A stretch of DNA of 26,728 nucleotides, taken from contig CAMLHL010000042.1 of the NCBI GenBank assembly GCA_946479855.1, positions 1 through 26,728 of the forward strand. Reading direction: 5' to 3'. Below are positions 12,820 to 23,414 of this stretch, in pieces. The position numbers were made by a program, and so were the translations under genes. The notes under the pieces were generated by a model, which had not been told where the DNA came from, ran no database searches, and worked only from the letters and a program-made list of their open reading frames with translations. Position 1 is the first letter of the stretch; every line of letters begins with the position of its first letter. Origin of the DNA: an uncultured Pseudomonadota bacterium. GTDB taxonomy: Bacteria > Pseudomonadota > Gammaproteobacteria > Burkholderiales > Rhodocyclaceae.

Positions 12820-13746
12820 ATGGACCTCACCCAGATCACCCAGGCTCTCCAGCGCGACGCGCTCTGGGTGGTCTTTCTCAACGTCCTGGCGCAGCAGGCC
12901 GGCCTGCCGGTCCCGGCTGTTCCCACCCTGCTGCTGGCCGGCAGCCTCGCCCTCTCCGCCGGCCAACTGGGCAAGCTGCTGGCTGCGGCCATTGTCGCCT
13001 CGGTCATCGCCGACTGGCTGTGGTACCAGGCCGGGCGGGCCTTCGGCTACCGGGTGCTGGCCGGCCTCTGCCGCCTGTCGATCAATCCCGGCTCCTGCGT
13101 CAGCCAGACCGAAGCCCGCTTTATCCGCTGGGGGCTGGGATCGCTCGTCGTCGCCAAGTTCATCCCCGGCTTTTCCACCGTTGCCCCGCCGATCGCCGGC
13201 GCCCTGCGCATGGCGCTGAGCGGCTTCGTCCTCGCCGCCGCCAGCGGCGCCGCGCTCTGGGCCGGACTCGCCCTCGGCGCCGGCTGGGTGCTGCGCGATG
13301 AAGTCCGGAGCACGATCGCCCTGCTCGATCAGCACGCCGGCAGCGTACTGAGCATGGCCGGCGCCGTGCTCGCCGTCTGGCTGGCCTGGAAGTTCTGGCA
13401 GAAATATCGCTTCCGCCAGCAGTCGACCGTAGCGCACATCACGCCGGGCGAACTCCTGGCCGCCATGACATCGGACAGCCCACTGCTCCTGCTCGACCTG
13501 CGCGGACACAGCATGGTCGCCGAAGCCGGCCCGATCGTCGGCGCCACCATCGCCGAACACGATCGCCTGCTCGACGCCGTCGGCCACTGGCCGAAACACC
13601 AGCCCATCGTCACCCTCTGCGCCTGCCCGGAAGATGCCGGCGCCATCCAGGCCGCCCACCGCCTGCTCAAGGCAGGCTATCTGTCGGTCCGGCCGCTGCG
13701 GGGCGGCTACGCGGCCTGGCTCGCGGCGCAGCCCCCGAGTTCATAA
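12820..13746 (+). CDS. DedA/SNARE-associated membrane protein fused to a rhodanese domain
   Basis: A 308-residue two-domain protein. Residues 1-195 form a DedA-family membrane domain with several helices and the family motif VAKFIPGFSTVAPPIAG (about 111-127). DedA proteins take part in lipid-carrier or phospholipid flipping and membrane homeostasis. Residues about 205-305 form a cytoplasmic rhodanese-like domain with LDLRGHS and the active-site loop TLCACPEDAGA, where C267 or C269 would carry the persulfide. It ends in RPLRGGYAAW, typical of rhodaneses. The RBS is weak (GAAGG). It follows the pirin gene by 70 bases on the same strand and could be its last partner or a separate unit. Confidence 0.9.
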   Translation: MDLTQITQALQRDALWVVFLNVLAQQAGLPVPAVPTLLLAGSLALSAGQLGKLLAAAIVASVIADWLWYQAGRAFGYRVLAGLCRLSINPGSCVSQTEARFIRWGLGSLVVAKFIPGFSTVAPPIAGALRMALSGFVLAAASGAALWAGLALGAGWVLRDEVRSTIALLDQHAGSVLSMAGAVLAVWLAWKFWQKYRFRQQSTVAHITPGELLAAMTSDSPLLLLDLRGHSMVAEAGPIVGATIAEHDRLLDAVGHWPKHQPIVTLCACPEDAGAIQAAHRLLKAGYLSVRPLRGGYAAWLAAQPPSS

Positions 13747-13756
13747 GGCGCGCTGC

Positions 13757-13778
13757 CGGGCGGATTTTTCTTCGCCCG
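13757..13778 (+). terminator. Possible stem-loop after the DedA-rhodanese gene
   Basis: CGGGCG (13757-13762) pairs with CGCCCG (13773-13778) around the loop GATTTTTCTT. The T-run lies in the loop and not after the stem, so this is not a canonical terminator. It starts 11 bases after the stop codon. Confidence 0.25.
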
Positions 13779-13828
13779 ACAAGGTGGCCTGGCCGCCGCT
13801 TCGCCAGGCGATGTGTTTCGAAATGTTA

Positions 13829-13854
13829 GGGAACGAAACCTTGCGGCGCTTCGT
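13829..13854 (+). promoter_or_regulatory. Possible ECF-sigma promoter of the small secreted protein
   Basis: GGGAAC at 13829-13834 and CGT at 13852-13854 are 17 bases apart, a spacing compatible with GGAAC/CGT-type ECF promoters. No housekeeping promoter is obvious upstream of this gene. GGAAC is a short motif, so the call is tentative. Confidence 0.25.
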
Positions 13855-13913
13855 GCGTTCTTATCTACAGGGATTGATCTTTCGGGATTGGTCTGTCGCA
13901 AAGGAGCTTAGCT

Positions 13914-14213
13914 ATGAAAACTCTTCGCATTGCACTGTTTGGCCTGGTGCTCTCGGCCGGACTGGTGCCTGGCGCTTACGCACACGGGCCCCGCATTGGG
14001 TTGAGCGTCAACTTGGGATATCCGGCGTATATAGCGCCGCCCGTCTATTACCCGCCGCCTCCGCCGGTCATTTATGCCCCGCCGCCCCCACTGGCTTACG
14101 TACCGCCGCCCTTCGTCGTGGCTCCCTATGGATACGCCGGCTATGGCTACGGTTACGATTACGGCCCGCGCCGAGGCTGGCGTGGGCACGACCACCGGCA
14201 TTACCGGCATTAA
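13914..14213 (+). CDS. Small secreted Pro/Tyr/Gly-rich protein with a His-rich tail
   Basis: A 99-residue protein with a clear signal peptide (hydrophobic core in residues 5-19) and an AYA-HG cleavage site after residue 23. The mature part is low complexity: Pro/Tyr runs at about 41-70, Gly/Tyr repeats at about 71-88 and a basic His-rich end (HDHRHYRH). I do not recognise a function. Such short periplasmic proteins are often envelope-stress induced or metal-binding, but that is inference from composition. The RBS (AAAGGAG) is strong. The gene is alone, with 167 bases upstream and a strong terminator 81 bases downstream. Confidence 0.78.
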   Translation: MKTLRIALFGLVLSAGLVPGAYAHGPRIGLSVNLGYPAYIAPPVYYPPPPPVIYAPPPPLAYVPPPFVVAPYGYAGYGYGYDYGPRRGWRGHDHRHYRH

Positions 14214-14294
14214 GCGCGAGCAGAAAAGGCTGGCCTCCAGCGGGTAGAAATCGCTCCCGGGGCTCGGGGGCGACTACCCCCGCTCGCGCTTCCG

Positions 14295-14332
14295 AAGAAA
14301 AGCCCTGGCGGCAAGGCTGCGGGGCTTTTCTT
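14295..14332. terminator. Rho-independent terminator, bidirectional
   Basis: AAGAAAAGCCC (14295-14305) pairs perfectly with GGGCTTTTCTT (14322-14332) over 11 bp with a 16-nt loop. The A/T flanks give a T-run on both strands. It separates the small secreted protein gene from the convergent end of the stressosome operon at 14358. Confidence 0.8.
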
Positions 14333-14357
14333 GCTGCGCCTGCCTGTGGCCATTGCT

Positions 14358-16346
14358 CTAGCCGGCGCGCAACATACGTTCGAAATCGCCGGCCATGACC
14401 GGCCGGGAAAACAGATAGCCCTGGTATTCGTGGCAACCGTGTTCGGCGAGAAAATCCAGTTCGCCAGGCGTTTCGACCCCTTCGGCGATGATGCTCAGGT
14501 CGAAGGCATGAGCCAGATGGATGATCTCCTTGATCATCGTTCTTTTCTGCGCATCGCTCTCCATTTGATGGACGAAGGACTGGTCGATCTTCAGCCGGTC
14601 GACGGGCAGGCGCCGCAGATAGGAGAGCGACGAGTAGCCGGTACCGAAATCGTCGAGCGAGATGCTGGCCCCCAGGTCGCGCAACTCGTTGAGTATGCGC
14701 ACCGATGCCTCCATGTCCTCCATCATGCTGCTTTCAGTCACCTCAAGCTCCAGCGATCCCGGCGCCACCTCGTTGGCGGCCAGCAAGTCCTTGAGCACCC
14801 GCAGAATGCCGCCATCACGAAACTGTCGCGTCGACACATTGACGGCCATGCGCAAATCGCGGAAGCCGGCGCCCTGCCAGAGGCGATTCTGGGTATTGGC
14901 GGTACGCAGAACCCACTCGCCGATCGGCCCGATCAGCCCGGTCTCTTCGGCCAGCGGGATAAAGCGCTCCGGATGAACCTGGCCAAACTCCGGACTCTGC
15001 CAGCGGATCAAGGCTTCGGCGCCGACGATGGCACCATCGCTGAGGCGGATCTGCGGCTGGTAGAAGAGGCTGAACTCGCGGTTCTCGAGTCCGCTCCACA
15101 AGGCATTCTCCAGCCGGACCCGCTCGGCGGCAAAGGCGCCCAGATCGCGCGTATAGAACTGCAGGGTACCGCCACCGGCAGCTTTGGCGCGATGCATGGC
15201 CGCATCGGCATGGGCGAGCAGCACTTCGGCATCCTTGCCGTCGTCGGGGTAAAGACTGGCACCAACACTGCACGCCTGATGGATGGAATGGCCATTGACG
15301 AGATAAGGCTGCATGAAGGCGGCGAGCACCTTGCTCGCCCCGTGCAGCGCCTCCTGAGCGCCATTTTTCAGGCCATCCATGACGATGACGAATTCGTCGC
15401 TGCCATGCCGGGCCACGGTGTCCCCGTCACGAACGATCTGCTGCAGGCGTGCCGCGATTTCCCTGATCAGGGCATCGCCGAACGAATGCCCCATGCTGTC
15501 GTTGATGAACTTGAAGCGCTCGATGCCGACGAAGAGCACGGCCAGCCCCTCGTCCCGGTCCCGGCCGAGGTGGGCGATCGCCTGTTCGAGGCGGTCCTTG
15601 AGCAGGTTGCGATTGGCCAGATCGGTCAGGCCATCGTGGGTGGCCAGGTACTCGATTCTCGCCTCGTAGGCCTTGCGTTCGCTGAGATCGTGGATGAAAG
15701 CGGCGAAGAACGGGAAGGCATCGGCCTCGATCAGGGTGACCGCCATTTCGACCGGGAACTCATGGGCATCGGCGCGCAATGCCGTCATTTCCTCGCGCTG
15801 CCCGGATGCCTCGCCATGCCCCTTGCTGCGGCAGATGGCGAGCATCTCGCGGAAGGCTTCGCGGCGGGAGCCGGGCAGGATCAGTTCGACCAGATCCCGA
15901 CCGATGACCTGCTCCCGCCGATAGCCGAACATGCGTTCGGCCGCCGGATTGAACTCGATGATGCGGCCATCTACACCGAAGGTGATGATGCTGTCGAAGG
16001 CGCTGCCGAGGATCGCCGCCTTGCGCCGCTCGCTGTCCCGCAACGAGCGGTTGAGGTCGAGGGTCTGCCGGTGCGTCATTTCGAACAGCGCCATGACCTG
16101 GGTCAGGAAGGCTTCGCTGCGCATGATCGTCTGCCCCTTGGGCAGCCCCGCCTTGAGCTGCGGCTTGATCGTCTGCACCAGACGGTAATGAATGCCGATC
16201 AGCCCGAGTATGGTCTGCTCGCCGGCGATCGCCCGGCGCCCCAATTCGTAGGCACGCTGCAACGCCGTTTCTTCATCCCCTCCGTTCAGGTAGTCGACAA
16301 AGGCCGACTCATAGTCCGCCGCGAATTTCGGTTGCCCGGTGTTCAT
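14358..16346 (-). CDS. RsbU_N-PAS-GGDEF(degenerate)-EAL protein: c-di-GMP phosphodiesterase output of the stressosome
   Basis: A 662-residue soluble protein and last gene of the rsbRSTX operon. Residues about 10-95 match the RsbU N-terminal domain that binds RsbT (helical pattern YxxALxxYL...LQRAYELGRR...ILGLIGIH...FEMTHRQ). A PAS domain follows (about 108-228; IIEFNPAAERMFGY). The GGDEF domain (about 230-400) is degraded: the signature is GSDEF at 315-319, and the first metal-binding Asp-x-Asp reads G-I-E in LFVGIERFKFIND. The RxxD site is kept. The EAL domain (about 408-660) is intact: EALIRW from 444, NVSTRQF, EVTES, DDFGTG, LKIDQSF, AEGVET and QGYLFSRP. The protein should hydrolyse c-di-GMP. 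I chose the ATG at 16346 (GAGG 8 nt upstream, 4-base overlap with rsbX). An ATG at 16352 is possible. Confidence 0.88.
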   Translation of the reverse strand: MNTGQPKFAADYESAFVDYLNGGDEETALQRAYELGRRAIAGEQTILGLIGIHYRLVQTIKPQLKAGLPKGQTIMRSEAFLTQVMALFEMTHRQTLDLNRSLRDSERRKAAILGSAFDSIITFGVDGRIIEFNPAAERMFGYRREQVIGRDLVELILPGSRREAFREMLAICRSKGHGEASGQREEMTALRADAHEFPVEMAVTLIEADAFPFFAAFIHDLSERKAYEARIEYLATHDGLTDLANRNLLKDRLEQAIAHLGRDRDEGLAVLFVGIERFKFINDSMGHSFGDALIREIAARLQQIVRDGDTVARHGSDEFVIVMDGLKNGAQEALHGASKVLAAFMQPYLVNGHSIHQACSVGASLYPDDGKDAEVLLAHADAAMHRAKAAGGGTLQFYTRDLGAFAAERVRLENALWSGLENREFSLFYQPQIRLSDGAIVGAEALIRWQSPEFGQVHPERFIPLAEETGLIGPIGEWVLRTANTQNRLWQGAGFRDLRMAVNVSTRQFRDGGILRVLKDLLAANEVAPGSLELEVTESSMMEDMEASVRILNELRDLGASISLDDFGTGYSSLSYLRRLPVDRLKIDQSFVHQMESDAQKRTMIKEIIHLAHAFDLSIIAEGVETPGELDFLAEHGCHEYQGYLFSRPVMAGDFERMLRAG

Positions 16347-17002
16347 GAGCATCGCCTCGGCAATGGGACATTACCGCCCTCGCCATGCCAGCGCAGGACG
16401 AGGACCAGGGCATCGTCCGTCGCCTTGCCATGGCGCTCGAGAATGGCTCGCGCCACCCGGTCGGCCGGACCCCGCTGAATGTCGCCAGTGGTGAAGCGCT
16501 CATCGATCCCGTCGGTGGCAAAAATCAGCAGATCACCAGGACAAATCGGCAACACGCTAGGCTGGACCGTCGGCAGGCGATAACCCACGACCCCGCTGCG
16601 ATTGGTCAGATACTCTTTGCGGCAGGTCCCGCGCCGGGCTGCCCCGAGCAGAATGCCCTCGACATTGCCGACGCCCGCCCAGGTGAGCGTTGCGCCCGCC
16701 GTTTGCAACGTCGCCAGGGCAAGGGCGGCACCGCGTGTTGTCTGCAGGGCTTCGTGGCAGAGCTTGAACAGGATATCCACCGGCTGGCCGGCCTGTTCGC
16801 GCAAGGTCCTGAGCGCGACCCCGGCGGCGGCGGCGGCTTCATCGCCGTGCCCGAGACCATCGACGACGGCGACCAGAATCCCTTCGCCACCGGGGCAGAC
16901 CAGCGCCGCATCGCCCGACTGCCGCTCGCCACTCATGGCTCGCCCGGCCACCGCATACTCGCAGACCTCAAGCAGATGCCGCTGGAGCGCTACATTTTCC
17001 AT
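16343..17002 (-). CDS. rsbX: RsbX-like PP2C/SpoIIE-family serine phosphatase
   Basis: A 219-residue single-domain phosphatase of the PP2C type. The metal-site aspartates are in place: SGDAAL (D31), VVDGLGHG (D48), FATDGID (D164) and TDDALV near 195-197. WAGVGNVEG at about 108-116 is the conserved GxGN strand. In Bacillus, RsbX removes phosphate from RsbS and RsbR and so resets the stressosome. The same role is inferred here from position directly after rsbT. The start overlaps the end of rsbT by 13 bases, and the ATGA at the other end couples it to the EAL gene. No separate RBS is visible, as expected for translational coupling. Confidence 0.9.
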   Translation of the reverse strand: MENVALQRHLLEVCEYAVAGRAMSGERQSGDAALVCPGGEGILVAVVDGLGHGDEAAAAAGVALRTLREQAGQPVDILFKLCHEALQTTRGAALALATLQTAGATLTWAGVGNVEGILLGAARRGTCRKEYLTNRSGVVGYRLPTVQPSVLPICPGDLLIFATDGIDERFTTGDIQRGPADRVARAILERHGKATDDALVLVLRWHGEGGNVPLPRRCS

Positions 17003-17400
17003 TTGGTCATCGTCACGGTGGTCCCCTTGCCGATCTCCGAGGCCAGATCGAATTCGTCCATCAGTCGTTTCGAGCCCGGCAAACCCAGGCCAAGGCTGCC
17101 GGAGGTGCTGTAGCCGTCCTGCATCGCCGAAAACAGATCGGCAATGCCCGGCCCCCGGTCGCGGGCCACGATCGAAACGCCGAGCTTCTCGCCCTGGCGC
17201 ACCAGGCGCAGGTCGAGTTCGCCCGTCCCGGCATAACTGAGAATATTGCGCGTCACTTCGGAAATGGCGGTAGCGATCAGGGTCAGCTCGCTGGAAGAGA
17301 AATTCAGCGCCGACGCGATCTCCCGCCCACGCAGCCGGGCGGTGACCAGATCGGCCTCGGAGCGGATTGGCACATTCAGTTCATTGAGCACGGCGTTCAC
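16990..17400 (-). CDS. rsbT: RsbT-like serine/threonine kinase (GHKL fold)
   Basis: A 136-residue switch kinase. The N-box is ISEVTRNILSYAG (E48, N52), the G1 box DRGPGI (81-86) and the G2 region DGYSTSGSLGLGLPGSKRL, followed by GTTVTMTKW. These motifs match B. subtilis RsbT closely, including YSTSG and GLPGxKRLMDEF. RsbT phosphorylates RsbS/RsbR, leaves the stressosome and binds the N-terminal domain of RsbU. Here the only protein with such a domain in the window is the EAL protein two genes on. Start codon GTG at 17400 with AAGGTAGG upstream, overlapping rsbS by 20 bases. Confidence 0.93.
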   Translation of the reverse strand: MNAVLNELNVPIRSEADLVTARLRGREIASALNFSSSELTLIATAISEVTRNILSYAGTGELDLRLVRQGEKLGVSIVARDRGPGIADLFSAMQDGYSTSGSLGLGLPGSKRLMDEFDLASEIGKGTTVTMTKWKM

Positions 17401-17761
17401 GGCCTACCTTGATATCGAGCCGGGACAGGGCATCCTCGAGGTCGAGTGCCGTCTCCGTGCCCTCCAGCGTCAGGCCCAACTGGACCATGGCGAAGGCCAC
17501 ATCCGGCTGGATGCCGACGACCACCGTCCGCGCCCCCAGCAATTGGGTCATCTGGGCGATATGGCGAAGCGTGCGGGCGGCAAAGGAATCGAGGACATCG
17601 AGCACGGTGACGTCGATGATGACGCAGGTGGCCCGGTATTTCTTGACCTCGGCGACCAGTTCGTCGCGCAGGCCGACCAGATCGGCGTCCATCAAGACTT
17701 CCTGGACCGACGCGATCAGCGTTTCCCCCAGTTTGAGGATCGGTGCCCGGACACGATTCAT
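17381..17761 (-). CDS. rsbS: RsbS-like STAS-domain stressosome scaffold
   Basis: A 126-residue single STAS domain. Together with RsbR it would build the stressosome core and hold RsbT. The phosphorylated serine of Bacillus RsbS (S59) is conserved at the same number in VLDVLDSFAART, and VVVGIQPDVAFAMVQLGL matches the RsbS signature VTGIQPxVAxxLxELG. The ATG overlaps the rsbR stop by 4 bases (ATGA), with AAGGT about 7 nt upstream. The length is close to the family's usual 120 residues. Confidence 0.93.
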   Translation of the reverse strand: MNRVRAPILKLGETLIASVQEVLMDADLVGLRDELVAEVKKYRATCVIIDVTVLDVLDSFAARTLRHIAQMTQLLGARTVVVGIQPDVAFAMVQLGLTLEGTETALDLEDALSRLDIKVGRERRAQ

Positions 17762-18717
17762 GGCCCGACCTTCGGGTTTGGATCATCGGCACCGTCCCCA
17801 TCTTTGACCACCCGGTAGCCGAGCAGGTGTTCCGCCGCCTCGATCCCCCCCTGCAGATCGCCTACCGTTCTGATCCGCCGCAGATCAATGCCGAGCCTGA
17901 CCATCGTCTGCGCGATCTCGGGAGCGATGCCGCTGACGATCGAAATCGCCCCCATCAAACGCGCCGCCTCGACGGTCTGGACCAGATGGTTGGCCACCTT
18001 GGTGTCGACCGAAGGCACCCCGGTCACGTCGATGACGACCACGGTCGCCCGGTTGGCGCGCACCGAGCGCAGCAACTGCTCGGTCAGCTGGCGGGCGCGC
18101 CGGGTATCGATCAGGCCGATGATCGGCAACAACAACAGGCCGGGCCGCAACAGCAGGACAGGCGTCGACAACTCGCGAATCGCTTCCTGCTGGCCCTGGA
18201 TGGTTTGTTCGCGCGACTCGATGTAGGTATCGATGGCCAGCCCCATGTCGAAAAAGGTCAGTTTCATCAGCGAATTGAAGACCGCAAAGGCCTGCTCCGG
18301 CGTCGCCTCAAACTCATCGCGCAGGCGCTTGAAAACGGCACGCAGATAGAAACAGTACATTCCCAGGTAGGACTTGACCGGCAGGCCGACATGCTCGTGC
18401 ACCTGGCCTATCCTGATCCGGTTGGCGACATATTGCTGATCGTAATGACCCTGGGTCAGCCGCATGAAATACGCCTTCTGCATTTCCTTGACGTGCCTGA
18501 GCAAATTGGGATCGGCAAAGAAGGCCCGGGTTTCCTCGAAAGCCATCAGATGCTCGTAGAAATCCTCGATCATCGAGTCGGCGTATTGCGTGGCGAGATC
18601 GTTGACGCCCTCGAGCACGGCCACGTCCTGCTCGGTAAATTCCAGAAAGGCCTTGCGCCGCTGGACCTCCTCGCTGGAAATCGACGTTTCCGTCGCCAGC
18701 GTTTCATGAATTGCCAT
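17758..18717 (-). CDS. rsbR: RsbR-like stressosome sensor with N-terminal globin (heme) domain
   Basis: A 319-residue sensor and first gene of the operon. Residues about 15-170 form a globin-coupled-sensor/protoglobin domain. RIRIGQVHEHVGLPVKSYLGMY carries the proximal-histidine signature, with H107 the likely heme ligand, as in HemAT-type globins. Residues about 183-300 form the RsbR STAS domain. T205 in GLIDTRRA and T239 in VDTKVANHL align with T171 and T205, the two RsbT-phosphorylated threonines of Bacillus RsbRA, and SGIAPEIAQTMVRLGIDL is characteristic. The start has a strong RBS (GAGGAGG). The domain should bind O2, NO or CO and pass the signal to the stressosome. I see no other RsbR paralogue in the window. 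Confidence 0.93.
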   Translation of the reverse strand: MAIHETLATETSISSEEVQRRKAFLEFTEQDVAVLEGVNDLATQYADSMIEDFYEHLMAFEETRAFFADPNLLRHVKEMQKAYFMRLTQGHYDQQYVANRIRIGQVHEHVGLPVKSYLGMYCFYLRAVFKRLRDEFEATPEQAFAVFNSLMKLTFFDMGLAIDTYIESREQTIQGQQEAIRELSTPVLLLRPGLLLLPIIGLIDTRRARQLTEQLLRSVRANRATVVVIDVTGVPSVDTKVANHLVQTVEAARLMGAISIVSGIAPEIAQTMVRLGIDLRRIRTVGDLQGGIEAAEHLLGYRVVKDGDGADDPNPKVGP

Positions 18718-18989
18718 GGTGCCTCCTCGCTAGAAAGGATGCTGCAACATTTTTCGCCGCGGGTTACGAAGGGCGAGCCAGTTTTCGGCTTATTCGATGA
18801 CGGCACGCCGACTGTTAGAACCACCCGGGTAGCATTGGTTTCAACGACTCGGCGACGTGACCGCGGCGCTTGGCCAGCCGCGGCGCCATCCCGTCGATCA
18901 GCGGCGATGCGGCCAGCCCCCGCGATTCCCGCACGGCAAAAAGCCCCGCACCGTTTCCGGCCGGGGCTTTTGCCTGGGCTGGCGACGAC
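18718..18989. other. Intergenic region upstream of the stressosome operon
   Basis: These 272 bases must hold the operon promoter. On the minus strand TTGAAA (18844-18839) is a fair -35, but the -10 18 bases on (TTCTAA) is poor. No alternative-sigma promoter is convincing. The right end contains the ndh terminator. I see no gene here. Confidence 0.4.
18935..18974 (-). terminator. Rho-independent terminator of ndh
   Basis: GGCAAAAAGCCCCG (18935-18948) pairs with CGGGGCTTTTGCC (18962-18974) with one bulged A. On the minus strand the stem is followed by a T-run. It begins 15 bases after the ndh stop codon. Confidence 0.8.
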
Positions 18990-20369
18990 CTAGTGCAGCT
19001 TGACGTGGGGCTCGGTGCGCCGGGTGATCAGGCGAGCCAGGGTATCGAGGGCAACCTTGGCAAAACCATGCAGCGCCAGTTCGTGCAGCTTGTACAGCGA
19101 GAGGTACATCATCCGGGCGAAATAGCCTTCAACCCACAGGTTGCCACCGACCACGCCGCCCATCAGGTTGCCGACGGTCGAATACTTGCCGAGCGAGACC
19201 AGCGAGCCGAAGTCGCGATAGCGCCAGGGCTTGAGCGGCTTGCCCTCGAGCCGGGCCCGTATCTGCTTGACCATGTGCGAGGCCTGCTGGTGCGCCGCCT
19301 GGGCACGCGGCGGAACGGTGACGCCCTCCTTGCCGATCCAGGCGCAGGCGGCGCAGTCGCCGAGGGCGAAGATGTGGGCGTCGCGCGTCGTCTGCAGCGT
19401 CGGATGGACGACCAGCTGGTTGATGCGGTTCGCCTCCAGGCCGCCGAAATCCTTGAGCATTTCCGGCGCCTTGACGCCGGCCGCCCAAACCACCAGCTCG
19501 GCCGGCATCACCTCGCCGCTGGCGAAGCGGACGCCGTCGGCCAGCACTTCGGCGACGGCGGCGCCGGTGCGCACCTCGACGCCGATTTCGCCGAGCAGGC
19601 GCAGCGCCGCACCCGAGACACGCTCGGGAACGGCGGGCAGGACGCGCGGCGCGGCTTCGATGAGGACGATGCGGATATCCTGGCTCGGGTCGATGCGGTC
19701 GAGGCCATAGGAAACCAGGGTGCGCGTCGTCTTGTGCAGTTCGGCGGCCAGTTCGACCCCGGTGGCGCCGCCACCGATGATGGCGACGGTCAGCTGCCCC
19801 GGCTGCCGCGGCGCGTGCTGGGCATGGGCGCGGATGCAGGCATTAACCATGCGGCGATGGAAGCGGGCGGCCTGGGCCGGTGTTTCCAGGGCGATGGCGT
19901 GCTCCTTGACGCCGGGTGTGCCGAAATCGTTGGTCAGGCTGCCGATGCAGATGACCAGCGTGTCGTAGCGGAAGGCGCGCGGCGCGATGACCTGTTCGCC
20001 GCTTTCGTCGATGTAAGGGGCGGTGATAACCAACTGCCGGTCGCGGTCGATGCCGACCACCTCGCCGTAGCGATAGCGGTAGCCGTGCCAGTAGGACTGG
20101 GCCAGATGGTTGATTTCGTAGGTGCCGAGATCCATGCTGCCGGCGGCAATTTCGTGGAGGTGCGGTTTCCAGAAATGGGTCTGCGACTTTTCGATCAGCG
20201 TGATCGCCGCCTTGCGCTTCTTGCCGAGCTGGTCGCCGAGCGCGGTGGCCAGCTCGAGACCGCCGGCCCCGCCGCCGACGATGACGACCTGGTGCAGGCC
20301 GGCATCCGGCCCCTCGACGTTGAAGGGTTCCCCGCTGACGGGCACGTAGGTGTCCCTGGTTATTGCCAT
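18990..20369 (-). CDS. ndh: Type II NADH dehydrogenase (NDH-2)
   Basis: A 459-residue single-subunit, non-proton-pumping NADH:quinone oxidoreductase on the inner membrane surface. The FAD loop is VVIVGGGAGGLEL (28-40) and the NADH loop VAIIGGGATGVEL (195-207). VVWAAGVKAPE and HIFALGDCAACAW are the conserved FAD-contact segments, followed by VPPRAQAAHQQ near the quinone site and an amphipathic C-terminal membrane-binding region. The length fits NDH-2 (about 430-460). The start at 20369 has CGGAGA upstream. It is monocistronic, with its own terminator at 18935-18974. Confidence 0.94.
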   Translation of the reverse strand: MAITRDTYVPVSGEPFNVEGPDAGLHQVVIVGGGAGGLELATALGDQLGKKRKAAITLIEKSQTHFWKPHLHEIAAGSMDLGTYEINHLAQSYWHGYRYRYGEVVGIDRDRQLVITAPYIDESGEQVIAPRAFRYDTLVICIGSLTNDFGTPGVKEHAIALETPAQAARFHRRMVNACIRAHAQHAPRQPGQLTVAIIGGGATGVELAAELHKTTRTLVSYGLDRIDPSQDIRIVLIEAAPRVLPAVPERVSGAALRLLGEIGVEVRTGAAVAEVLADGVRFASGEVMPAELVVWAAGVKAPEMLKDFGGLEANRINQLVVHPTLQTTRDAHIFALGDCAACAWIGKEGVTVPPRAQAAHQQASHMVKQIRARLEGKPLKPWRYRDFGSLVSLGKYSTVGNLMGGVVGGNLWVEGYFARMMYLSLYKLHELALHGFAKVALDTLARLITRRTEPHVKLH

Positions 20370-20479: not shown

Positions 20480-21106
20480 TCAGCCGGCCTCGGCCCAGGC
20501 GATGATGGCCTGCCATTGCTCGATGTCGCGCTCGGCGCGCGCAGGCGGCAGGTCGAACAGGGTCATGCCGGCGGCGGTGGCCTGGACGTAGACCTGGGTG
20601 TCGCGCAGGTAGGCGAGCACCGGCAGGTCGAACGAAGCAAAGAATTTTTCCAGTTCGCCGGCGGCGCGGGTCCGGGCATCAACCCGCATGCCGATCACCG
20701 CGACGTCAGCCTTACCCTTGCGGACGGCCTTCTCGGCGAGCAATTCGGTCAGGAAATGGCGGGTCGCCAGCATGTCGAACAACGACGGCTGGACCGGCAC
20801 GATGACCCGCGTCGACAGCTTGAGCACGCGGTCGAGCATCTTGCCGTGCAGGCCGGCCGGGGTGTCGAGGACGACATGCGTGGTGCCCTTGGGCGGCCGG
20901 GAAATCTTGTCCTCGCCGACCGCCCAGGTCTCGATGGTGGGCAGCGCGAAGGGACGAAGCCCCAGCCATTCGCGCGACGATTGCTGGCGGTCGATATCGC
21001 CGAGCATCACCTCGTGCCCCTGGTTGGCAAAATAGCCGGCCAGGTTGGTGGCCAGCGTGCTCTTGCCGGAACCGCCCTTCGGGTTGGCAACGAGAAAGGC
21101 CTTCAT
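20480..21106 (-). CDS. ParA/MinD-family ATPase without a ParB partner
   Basis: A 208-residue deviant-Walker ATPase. The P-loop is PKGGSGKST (residues 9-17) with the signature lysine K10. Further motifs are GDIDRQQS (36-43, Walker A') and VVLDTPAGL (78-86, Walker B). It lacks the N-terminal DNA-binding extension of plasmid ParA and no parB or par site lies nearby, so it is an orphan ParA that may position a cargo on the nucleoid or at a pole. The ATG lies 4 bases inside the end of the TAXI-type gene, so the two are translationally coupled. Confidence 0.88.
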   Translation of the reverse strand: MKAFLVANPKGGSGKSTLATNLAGYFANQGHEVMLGDIDRQQSSREWLGLRPFALPTIETWAVGEDKISRPPKGTTHVVLDTPAGLHGKMLDRVLKLSTRVIVPVQPSLFDMLATRHFLTELLAEKAVRKGKADVAVIGMRVDARTRAAGELEKFFASFDLPVLAYLRDTQVYVQATAAGMTLFDLPPARAERDIEQWQAIIAWAEAG

Positions 21107-22443
21107 GTCAGGGCTTCTTCCCGCTTGTCGAGAATGTGACGAACCAGATTGACGTGTTCGCGCAGGGTGTAGGTCAGGTCGGTGAAACCGAGCGGCACGT
21201 GCAGCTCGCTGGCCTCCTCGTCGAGGGCGTCGAGGCGGGCACGGTAGTCGCCCAGCCGGGCGGCCTCGAAATGGTTCTTGAGGTCGTCTTCGAGGAATTT
21301 CAGCTCGCCGTAGCAGCGGAAGATCTTGGAACGCACCCGCCAGTTATAGATCGCCGGCGCCACCTTGAGCAGCGGGATGAGCAGGGCGAAGATCGGCACC
21401 AGCATGACGATCAGCCGGTCGACCAGCACCGCCAGCCAGAACGGCAGGTAGCGCTGCAAGAAGGGCGCCCCGGACTTGAAGTAGCGCGCCGCCTCGGGCG
21501 ACAGCGGCAGCATCTGGTCCTTGTAGGAGGGAAATTCGCCGGCATCCTGGAAGAAGCCGGACTTGCCGTGCACTTCGCTGGCCGCCTGCAGCAGCAGGGT
21601 CTTCAGCGCCGGATGCAGGTCCTCGCGGACGATCAGGTTGGCAGTCGGGGCCAGCAGCTTGATGTCGGTCGGCGGGAAATCACGGACCAGGTCGGCGACG
21701 CCCTGCGGGAAGGTCAGCTTGGTCAGGAAGGGAAAACGGCGCTGGTAGGCGCCGGCCTGGGCGAAGCTCATCAGCTTGACGCCGGGCGAGCGGAGCAGCA
21801 CCTGGACGACCGGTGCCGACTCGGCGGCGATGATGAAGGCGGCGTCTATCCTCCCCTGCTGCAACTCTTCGGCAGCGGTCAGGCCGGCCACCGGCAACAG
21901 ATGGTCGCCGGCCGGTATTTCGTTGGCATCGAGTAGTTGCTGCGCCAGCTGACGGACGCCCGAGCCCTCCTGGCCGATGGCGATGCGCTTGCCGCGCAGG
22001 TCGGTCAGCCGCGTCAGTTCCTTGCCGTTGCCCGTATCGCCGCGATAGAAGACCCAGACCGGCTCGTAGAACAAGCTGCCGAGCGAGAGCAGGCCGGAAT
22101 CGTCCTCGGCGTCGGGGTCCTCCTTCGGCGGCACGACGCCGCCCTGGACAAAGGCGACCTGCGCCTCGTCGGCCTTCAGGCGTTCGAGGTTCTGCAAGGC
22201 CCCGGCCGAGGCCCTGACCTCCAGCGTGATGCCGTTGCGGGCCAGGATGGCCGCGTAGCGCTTGGCAAACTGGTAATAGGCCCCGCTCTCGCCGCCGGTG
22301 GTGATGACGATGGTCTTGGGCGGCGCCGGCTTGACGAACTGGTAGGCGACGACGAAGCCGATACCGGCGATCAGGACGATCCACCAGGCGGTGGCGAACA
22401 GATCGCGCAGGGAAAGCAGGCCGGCCTTGATCCTGGCCATCAT
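21103..22443 (-). CDS. TAXI-family (TRAP-type) solute-binding protein with two membrane anchors
   Basis: A 446-residue protein. An N-terminal TM helix (about 18-37) is followed by a TAXI/NMT1-like periplasmic binding domain (about 42-320; TIVITTGGESGAYYQFAK and GKRIAIGQEGSG). A second hydrophobic helix (about 335-360) and a charged, helical C-terminal cytoplasmic region of about 85 residues complete it. Classical TAXI proteins are free in the periplasm and feed a TRAP permease. This one is anchored at both ends and no TRAP permease gene is nearby, so it may be a sensor or scaffold. The ATG at 22443 overlaps the stop of the quinone oxidoreductase gene (ATGA). Confidence 0.85.
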   Translation of the reverse strand: MMARIKAGLLSLRDLFATAWWIVLIAGIGFVVAYQFVKPAPPKTIVITTGGESGAYYQFAKRYAAILARNGITLEVRASAGALQNLERLKADEAQVAFVQGGVVPPKEDPDAEDDSGLLSLGSLFYEPVWVFYRGDTGNGKELTRLTDLRGKRIAIGQEGSGVRQLAQQLLDANEIPAGDHLLPVAGLTAAEELQQGRIDAAFIIAAESAPVVQVLLRSPGVKLMSFAQAGAYQRRFPFLTKLTFPQGVADLVRDFPPTDIKLLAPTANLIVREDLHPALKTLLLQAASEVHGKSGFFQDAGEFPSYKDQMLPLSPEAARYFKSGAPFLQRYLPFWLAVLVDRLIVMLVPIFALLIPLLKVAPAIYNWRVRSKIFRCYGELKFLEDDLKNHFEAARLGDYRARLDALDEEASELHVPLGFTDLTYTLREHVNLVRHILDKREEALT

Positions 22444-23414
22444 GGCAGCAGGATGGTGGAGCCGGTGGTCTGGCGCGCCTCGAGGTCGCGGTGCGCCTGG
22501 GCGGCGTCCTTGAGGGCGTAGGTCTGGTTGACCTCGATCCTGACCTGGCCGCTGCCGACGACATCGAACAGGTCGCTGCCCAGGGCGACGAGATCCTCGC
22601 GCTTGGCGGTGTAGTTCATCAGCGTCGGCCGGGTCACGAACAGCGAGCCCTTCTGCGAGAGCAGCAGCAGGTCGAGCGGCGGCACCGGGCCGGAGGCGTT
22701 GCCGTAGGTGACCATCATGCCCATCGGGCGCAGGCAGTCGAGCGAGCCCATGAAGGTGTCCTTGCCGACGCCGTCATAGACGACCGCAACGCCCTCGCCG
22801 CCGGTCAGTTCGCGGACCCGGGCGGTGAAGTTCTCGGTGCTGTAGTTGATCACGTGGTGGCAGCCGTGCGCCTTGGCCAGCTCGGCCTTGGCCGGGGAGC
22901 CGACGGTGCCGATCACGGTGGCGCCCAGCGCGTTCGCCCACTGGCTGGCGATCAGCCCGACCCCGCCGGCGGCGGCGTGGATCAGCACGGCATCGCCCGG
23001 CTGCACGCGGTAGGTCTTGCGCAGCAGGTAGGCGGCGGTCAGGCCTTGCAGCATCATCGCCGCGCCGGTCTCAAAACTGATGGCCGCCGGCAACTGGAGC
23101 AGGCGATGCGCCGGAATGTTGCGGACCTCGGCATAGGCGCCGACCGGGCCGCCGGCATAGGCGACGCGGTCGCCGACCTTGACCTCGGTGACGCCCGCAC
23201 CAACTGCCTCGACGATGCCCGCCCCTTCCAGGCCGAGGCCGGCGGGCAGCGGCAACGGGTAGAGGCCGCTGCGGTGGTAGGTGTCGATGTAATTGAGGCC
23301 GACCGCCCGATGGCGAACCGTCGCCTCGCCGGGGGCCGGCGCCAGCAGGTCGACTTCTTCCCAGCGCAGCACTTCCGGGCCGCCGGTCTGATGGATACGA
23401 ATGGCGTGGGACAT
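22440..23414 (-). CDS. NADPH:quinone oxidoreductase (zeta-crystallin/QOR type)
   Basis: A 324-residue MDR-superfamily enzyme of the QOR group, reducing quinones with NADPH. NYIDTYHRSGLYP (41-53) and GLEGAGIVEAVGAGV are QOR signatures. AAAGGVG (147-153) is the NADPH-binding loop. There are no zinc ligands. The length equals the family norm (about 325). A strong RBS (GAGGAG) precedes the ATG. It is the first gene of a three-gene operon with the TAXI-type protein and ParA. It is a second zinc-free MDR in the window besides 9043-10059. Confidence 0.92.
   Translation of the reverse strand: MSHAIRIHQTGGPEVLRWEEVDLLAPAPGEATVRHRAVGLNYIDTYHRSGLYPLPLPAGLGLEGAGIVEAVGAGVTEVKVGDRVAYAGGPVGAYAEVRNIPAHRLLQLPAAISFETGAAMMLQGLTAAYLLRKTYRVQPGDAVLIHAAAGGVGLIASQWANALGATVIGTVGSPAKAELAKAHGCHHVINYSTENFTARVRELTGGEGVAVVYDGVGKDTFMGSLDCLRPMGMMVTYGNASGPVPPLDLLLLSQKGSLFVTRPTLMNYTAKREDLVALGSDLFDVVGSGQVRIEVNQTYALKDAAQAHRDLEARQTTGSTILLP

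Follow-up and report, generated by a model that had tools for sequence, protein, structure and literature searches.

RsbT, the switch kinase of stressosomes, activates Bacillus RsbU by ordering its linkers, and the same linker architecture has been proposed for cyclases and kinases (PMC12143880). In globin-type modules composed of RsbR, RsbS, RsbT and RsbX (RSTX), the proteins encoded downstream fall into eleven types, some predicted to set the level of cyclic di-GMP (c-di-GMP) in Vibrio, Chromobacterium and Herbaspirillum, and the RsbU_N domain occurs in some of those from alpha-, beta- and gammaproteobacteria (PMC9237108). For the RsbR of Vibrio brasiliensis, phosphorylation by RsbT was fastest with unliganded Fe(II), intermediate with nitric oxide (NO) or CO and basal with O2 or Fe(III) (PMC4976288). 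Here, we analyzed a 26,728-nucleotide stretch, hereafter the window, of contig CAMLHL010000042.1 (GenBank assembly GCA_946479855.1) from an uncultured bacterium of the Rhodocyclaceae. Five overlapping minus-strand genes, running from position 18717 down to 14358 with neighbor overlaps of 4, 20, 13 and 10 bases, encode a globin RsbR, RsbS, RsbT, RsbX and a 664-residue protein with the domains RsbU_N, PAS, GGDEF and EAL. Through this operon, gas sensing by heme is probably coupled to degradation of the biofilm messenger c-di-GMP, via an RsbT-docking domain of the type that in Bacillus turns on the general stress response. The preliminary description of this DNA had named the same five genes, and both the open reading frame (ORF) list of the window and the Pfam scan, which covered 20 window ORFs, bore it out.

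Stressosome core and output enzyme

RsbR matched the Pfam families Protoglobin (123.7 bits) and STAS (50.1 bits), and its closest solved chain by sequence was 7o0i_B (169.3 bits), from what we take to be the Vibrio vulnificus stressosome. Tyr54, His107, Thr185 and Thr239 were identical in all seven aligned proteins (the window, L001-L005 and L045), and Tyr54 and His107 line up with the same residues of 7o0i_B. His107 is thus a putative proximal heme ligand and Tyr54 a putative distal residue, with Thr185 (ELSTPV) and Thr239 (VDTKVA) as putative phosphosites, roles that we assign by analogy. RsbS matched STAS (39.8 bits), with 6qcm as the closest solved chain (92.3 bits), and carries a DSFAAR motif from residue 58, in which Ser59 is presumably the phosphorylated serine. 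RsbT matched HATPase_c_2 (42.8 bits); its significant Protein Data Bank (PDB) matches were chains of anti-sigma F (SpoIIAB), and among its close relatives several are named "serine/threonine-protein kinase RsbT" by JGI and some "anti-sigma regulatory factor" by NCBI. RsbX matched the SpoIIE-type PP2C family (55.5 bits), its closest solved chains being 3zt9 (70.4 bits) and then 3w40 (32.8 bits), a chain named RsbX. We take 3zt9 to be Moorella MtX; PMC7647112 gives that code to MtG instead. Judged by domain matches, a protoglobin-STAS RsbR followed by RsbS, RsbT and RsbX, in the order R-S-T-X, is a globin-type RSTX module.

Subsequent to these four genes lies the output enzyme, which matched EAL (246.1 bits), GGDEF (146.5 bits) and PAS_9 (51.5 bits). 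In an alignment of this protein with 23 relatives (24 members), nine EAL positions (E446, N505, E537, E540, D567, D568, K588, E624 and Q644), known as catalytic or metal-binding, were invariant in 24/24. The position of the first metal-site aspartate of GGDEF is glycine (Gly276) in every member; an aspartate, presumably metal-binding, occupies it in the five solved GGDEF chains shown, two of which are forms of one protein. The GGDEF signature itself reads SGDEF in 10 members, GSDEF in 7, SSDEF in 3, ESDEF in 2 and GSDQF in 2, and the RxxD motif of the inhibitory site is kept in 19 of the 24 (RDGD in 17, REGD and RDID in one each). Because the residues of the EAL site are retained and the metal-site aspartate of GGDEF is lost, the 664-residue protein is predicted to degrade c-di-GMP and to make none, and looks like a pure phosphodiesterase output. 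A bifunctional cyclase/phosphodiesterase was rejected on the same loss in 24/24. The preliminary description had not mentioned this loss, which supports a phosphodiesterase output. The PAS region (15678-16016) gave a profile match to heme-PAS chains of FixL (e.g., 8js5, 73 bits, profile positions 97-235); if the PAS domain of this protein binds heme, a second gas-sensing domain in one pathway would be notable.

An RsbU_N domain at the N-terminus had been proposed from the letters of the DNA and was confirmed by a profile search, with a score of 35.5 bits against the Pfam cut-off of 25.5 (E 1.1e-8); it is fused to an intact EAL domain directly downstream of R-S-T-X. Precomputed annotation places RsbU_N (PF08673) in 21 of the 23 EAL relatives, P0020 and P0021 being those without it. 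The N-terminal region is modelled as four helices, the last at residues 72-112. Residues Y14, Y21, L37-G38-R39, E91, M92, H94 and R95 were common to 40/40 RsbU_N sequences, whatever the effector. On the side of the kinase, R22 and R26 of RsbT were identical in 121/121 sequences (the window and the best 120 of 6167 matches). By-eye placement against the B. subtilis RsbT sequence sets these two arginines at R19 and R23, which are thereby kept, and puts a glutamate, E27, at N24. Within the docking domain, E28, placed at E24 of B. subtilis RsbU, was kept in 22/23 EAL and 16/16 other relatives; E24 is an RsbT-contact residue (PMC12143880). When residues 1-110 were compared by sequence with PDB chains, no RsbU was returned at E <= 10, and the profile of the whole protein gave no RsbU among the best 60 of 84 matches. 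The RsbU_N of the related histidine kinase L047 does match RsbU in a PDB sequence search. KaiA and RsbU domains belong to one SCOP superfamily.

Co-occurrence and distribution

All six genomes found with the EAL protein (L001-L005 and G344) keep the order R-S-T-X-EAL; because of this retention, the gene set is not a chance arrangement. Among 76 congeners, RsbU_N was present in five, and a separate search for RsbT (E <= 1e-5) found it in the same five and in none other. By chance, this strict overlap would arise once in 18,474,840, a figure to be read with the cassette being inherited as a unit, so that these are not five independent events.

The same domain was found ahead of other effectors. 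A protein search with residues 1-110 gave 39 matches among 231 candidates. Of the 39, 23 are GGDEF-EAL proteins and 15 carry a histidine-kinase ATPase domain, and the remaining one, P0030, has only PAS domains. In genome samples at the levels of class, order and family, which may overlap, RsbU_N occurred in 8/369, 2/399 and 1/297 genomes, respectively. The class-level set consisted of the centre genome and seven RsbU_N-histidine kinases (by Pfam), the order-level set of the centre genome and L054, whose RsbU_N protein is by eye a histidine kinase beside S-T-X, and the family-level set of the centre genome itself. RsbT was found in the stretch upstream of the RsbU_N gene in 6/8 class-sample genomes, the centre included; at L052 only RsbX was seen, and at L050 the contig ends. 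Collectively, these bacteria mostly keep RsbU_N adjacent to RsbT, with different effectors following the domain. In the kinase modules of L007 (6101-6912), L047, L048, L051 and L054, a second RsbT-like gene was observed; the EAL-type module of the window has one.

The preliminary description had further stated that neither an RsbU phosphatase nor sigma-B is present, which was upheld for the window ORFs scanned and for six relatives. None of the 20 window ORFs scanned encodes RsbU or sigma-B, and no RsbU (RsbU_N with PP2C) was found in the six relatives, where the EAL protein was the sole RsbU_N match per genome (at E <= 1 in L001-L005 and at E <= 0.001 in G344). All six also have further SpoIIE-type PP2C genes, none of which was picked up in the RsbU_N searches. 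No SigB/F/G sigma factor exceeded the TIGR02980 cut-off in any of the six (best approximately 125 against 234 bits), the sub-cut-off matches presumably being other sigma factors. Setting aside the RsbR, RsbS and RsbT genes themselves, none of those 20 ORFs encodes RsbV or RsbW, no genome-wide search for them having been made. With no second RsbU_N and no SigB/F/G sigma in the six relatives, a sigma-B pathway was rejected as far as tested.

The RsbU_N-PAS-GGDEF-EAL cassette is real and patchily distributed (5/76 congeners), a pattern compatible with acquisition by transfer or with repeated loss. The window has it flanked by a Pyr_redox_2 gene and a DedA-like gene (12820-20369), and in the closest relative, L001 (5070-8586), it lies on the far side of a DedA-rhodanese gene. 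A DedA match was found in 34 congeners; of 30 DedA loci examined (L070, L072, L074 and L088 as shorter stretches), only L062 (the same genome as G001) bears the cassette within approximately 1.5 kb on each side. The differing sides and the cassette-free DedA loci are a sign of mobility or rearrangement.

Proposed mechanism and the sign of the RsbT effect

We propose that the gas sensor RsbR and RsbS build a core that would hold RsbT. A change in the state of the heme, by the Vibrio precedent the loss of O2, would lead RsbT to phosphorylate the STAS proteins and leave the core, and free RsbT would then dock on the RsbU_N domain and following helix of the 664-residue protein. Docked RsbT would order the helical linker into the PAS domain and stimulate the EAL phosphodiesterase, so that c-di-GMP would fall, and RsbX would reset the core by dephosphorylating RsbR and RsbS. 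The GGDEF domain, without cyclase chemistry, would be at most regulatory. To a globin stressosome whose RsbT docks on and activates the EAL protein, and so lowers c-di-GMP, we assign a probability of roughly 58%.

Several points weigh against this reading, and the sign of the RsbT effect is its weakest step. By eye, one of four RsbU contact positions is identical (E24/E28) and the other three differ. Moreover, in Moorella, RsbT binds and attenuates MtG, the sole tested RsbU_N-linked c-di-GMP enzyme that we found (PMC7647112). As RsbT activates Bacillus RsbU but attenuates the Moorella cyclase, the sign of its effect is two-way: if the output of the pathway (less c-di-GMP) is conserved, RsbT should activate a hydrolase, and if what is conserved is the immediate consequence of docking, RsbT should inhibit it. 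The "RsbT, then lowered c-di-GMP" of the preliminary description is therefore one of two live signs. With the same docking and the opposite sign, free RsbT would keep the phosphodiesterase inactive and the trigger would raise c-di-GMP, which would fit all co-occurrence data equally well. We nevertheless regard inhibition as unlikely, given that Bacillus RsbT activates a phosphatase bearing RsbU_N (PMC12143880) and that the Moorella logic, in which less cyclase activity yields less c-di-GMP, is mirrored by activating, not inhibiting, a hydrolase.

Alternatively, RsbU_N could be merely a dimerization domain, with PAS, or GTP on the dead GGDEF, controlling the phosphodiesterase while RsbT targets something else. 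The three differing contact positions would suit such a role, as would the V. vulnificus downstream protein, which lacks RsbU_N and showed no RsbT interaction (PMC9237108). The restriction of RsbT and RsbU_N to the same five congeners, the adjacency of RsbU_N to RsbT in most histidine-kinase loci as well and the lack of another RsbU_N match in the six relatives argue against it and render it improbable. Phosphorylation of the EAL protein by RsbT, rather than docking alone, has been proposed for targets without RsbU_N (PMC9237108) and is one way in which the Moorella case has been told, as cyclase phosphorylation by the RsbT homolog (PMC4976288), but the same case is told elsewhere as binding and attenuation (PMC7647112) and activation of Bacillus RsbU consists of binding and linker ordering (PMC12143880), so that we consider it very improbable here.

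Returning to docking with activation, a more far-reaching form can be put forward tentatively, with our confidence in it short of even. Upon loss of O2, released RsbT would clamp the RsbU_N of a dimeric 664-residue protein and turn on the breakdown of c-di-GMP directly, without an intervening phosphatase, anti-sigma factor or two-component step; in that case, RsbU_N would represent an interchangeable socket for RsbT on a fourth type of effector, after phosphatase, histidine kinase and cyclase, and the cassette a self-contained module from gas to c-di-GMP. If true, the operon would offer a minimal system for how one released kinase controls unrelated enzymes through one docking domain, and the sign question, with RsbT activating a phosphatase and attenuating a cyclase, could be tested directly with a hydrolase. 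Members of the genus would then, in addition, have a means of adjusting biofilm and motility to the level of oxygen or NO.

Operon layout and comparison with known systems

Terminator-like hairpins follow both the Pyr_redox_2 gene located upstream and the EAL gene (Table 1), and the five genes therefore look like one separate transcription unit. The 68 bases around the hairpin of the EAL gene fold at -24.3 kcal/mol. The pattern scan for terminator-like sites found 4, against a mean of 3.7 in shuffled sequences, and is thus not enriched. A scan for sigma-70 promoters across 13700-19100 gave 0 sites (1.2 in shuffles). Upstream of rsbR (18717-18990) and in the upstream regions of relatives, we observed a pair resembling promoters of extracytoplasmic function (ECF) sigma factors, RAACY and GTTCYAA separated by 15-16 bases; by eye, it was exact in the window, L001, L005 and L045, differed at a single base of its first half in L002 and L004, and was absent from L003. 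An ECF-like regulon is not proposed, as genome-wide counts of the pattern against the reversed control were 3 vs 2, 2 vs 12 and 2 vs 9 in three relatives, without enrichment. Between the DedA gene and the terminator of the EAL gene, a plus-strand ORF of 99 residues (13914-14213) has, by eye, a signal-peptide-like start and a body rich in P, Y and G. Upstream of the Pyr_redox_2 gene, the minus strand (20480-23414) carries ParA-like, NMT1-like and zinc-binding-dehydrogenase-like genes with head-to-tail overlaps, a block also kept in L001.

Table 1 Features of the operon and its flanks in the window
Feature	Position	Strand	Basis
rsbR: N-terminal protoglobin and C-terminal STAS, 319 amino acids	17758..18717	-	Pfam, alignment to 7o0i_B
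rsbS: STAS scaffold, 126 amino acids, DSFAAR motif	17381..17761	-	Pfam, PDB sequence match
rsbT: HATPase switch kinase, 136 amino acids	16990..17400	-	Pfam, PDB matches, names of relatives
rsbX: single-domain PP2C (SpoIIE-type) feedback phosphatase, 219 amino acids	16343..17002	-	Pfam, PDB sequence match
RsbU_N-PAS-GGDEF-EAL gene, 664 amino acids, predicted c-di-GMP phosphodiesterase with metal-site-defective GGDEF	14358..16352	-	Pfam, alignments
RsbU_N domain, residues 13-92 of the 664-residue EAL protein	16077..16316	-	Pfam
Terminator-like hairpin 3′ of the EAL gene	14295..14332	-	11-pair stem; pattern scan gives the inner part, 14301-14318
Terminator-like hairpin stretch between the upstream Pyr_redox_2 gene and rsbR	18931..18990	-	-32.4 kcal/mol; absent from the pattern-scan output

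A text search of the literature found no account of an RsbU_N-EAL protein assayed as a target of RsbT, figures, supplements and most subscription journals being outside the search, and neither an output with hydrolase function alone beside a dead cyclase domain nor a test of one emerged from the listings and passages searched. As a concept, the placing of an RsbT-docking domain on an enzyme of c-di-GMP turnover is not new. The preliminary description had allowed that the class may not be new, in agreement with the cataloguing of globin-RSTX modules beside c-di-GMP genes (PMC9237108). It had, however, presented the domain swap at the RsbT target as the novelty, which does not hold: RsbU_N is already placed on the Moorella cyclase under RsbT (PMC12143880, PMC7647112) and on histidine kinases (PMC12143880), and EAL downstream proteins are listed in a figure legend, with RsbU_N on some downstream proteins (PMC9237108).

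Bacillus subtilis, with RsbRST, RsbU and sigma-B, shares the sensor core and the logic of RsbT docking on RsbU_N, and differs from the six relatives in that these lack an RsbU_N phosphatase and any SigB/F/G sigma over the cut-off. Proteobacterial RSTX modules with RsbU_N-histidine kinases (PMC12143880, and the seven of our class sample) have the same docking domain on a kinase effector; of these seven loci, five have RsbT and RsbX upstream, one RsbX alone and one a contig end, and the five modules with an extra RsbT-like gene are unlike the window in that respect. Globin RSTX modules of Vibrio, Chromobacterium, Herbaspirillum and others have the same protoglobin-STAS RsbR and the R-S-T-X order, and a signaling gene follows within a few bases; RsbU_N is present in some of these, and some are predicted to act on c-di-GMP (PMC9237108). 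The legend of that survey includes PAS, GGDEF and EAL, the RsbU_N-PAS-GGDEF-EAL architecture may already be drawn in its Figure 3, and its text makes no mention of Dechloromonas. In Moorella thermoacetica, MtR-MtS-MtT-MtX and MtG (Quin 2012, via PMC12143880, PMC7647112 and PMC4976288) likewise have an RsbT-type kinase acting on a c-di-GMP enzyme that bears RsbU_N. The Moorella output is a cyclase, RsbU_N-GAF-GGDEF (PMC12143880), whereas the enzyme described here is a predicted phosphodiesterase with a PAS domain and a metal-site-defective GGDEF, and the RsbR of the window, unlike its Moorella counterpart, carries a protoglobin.

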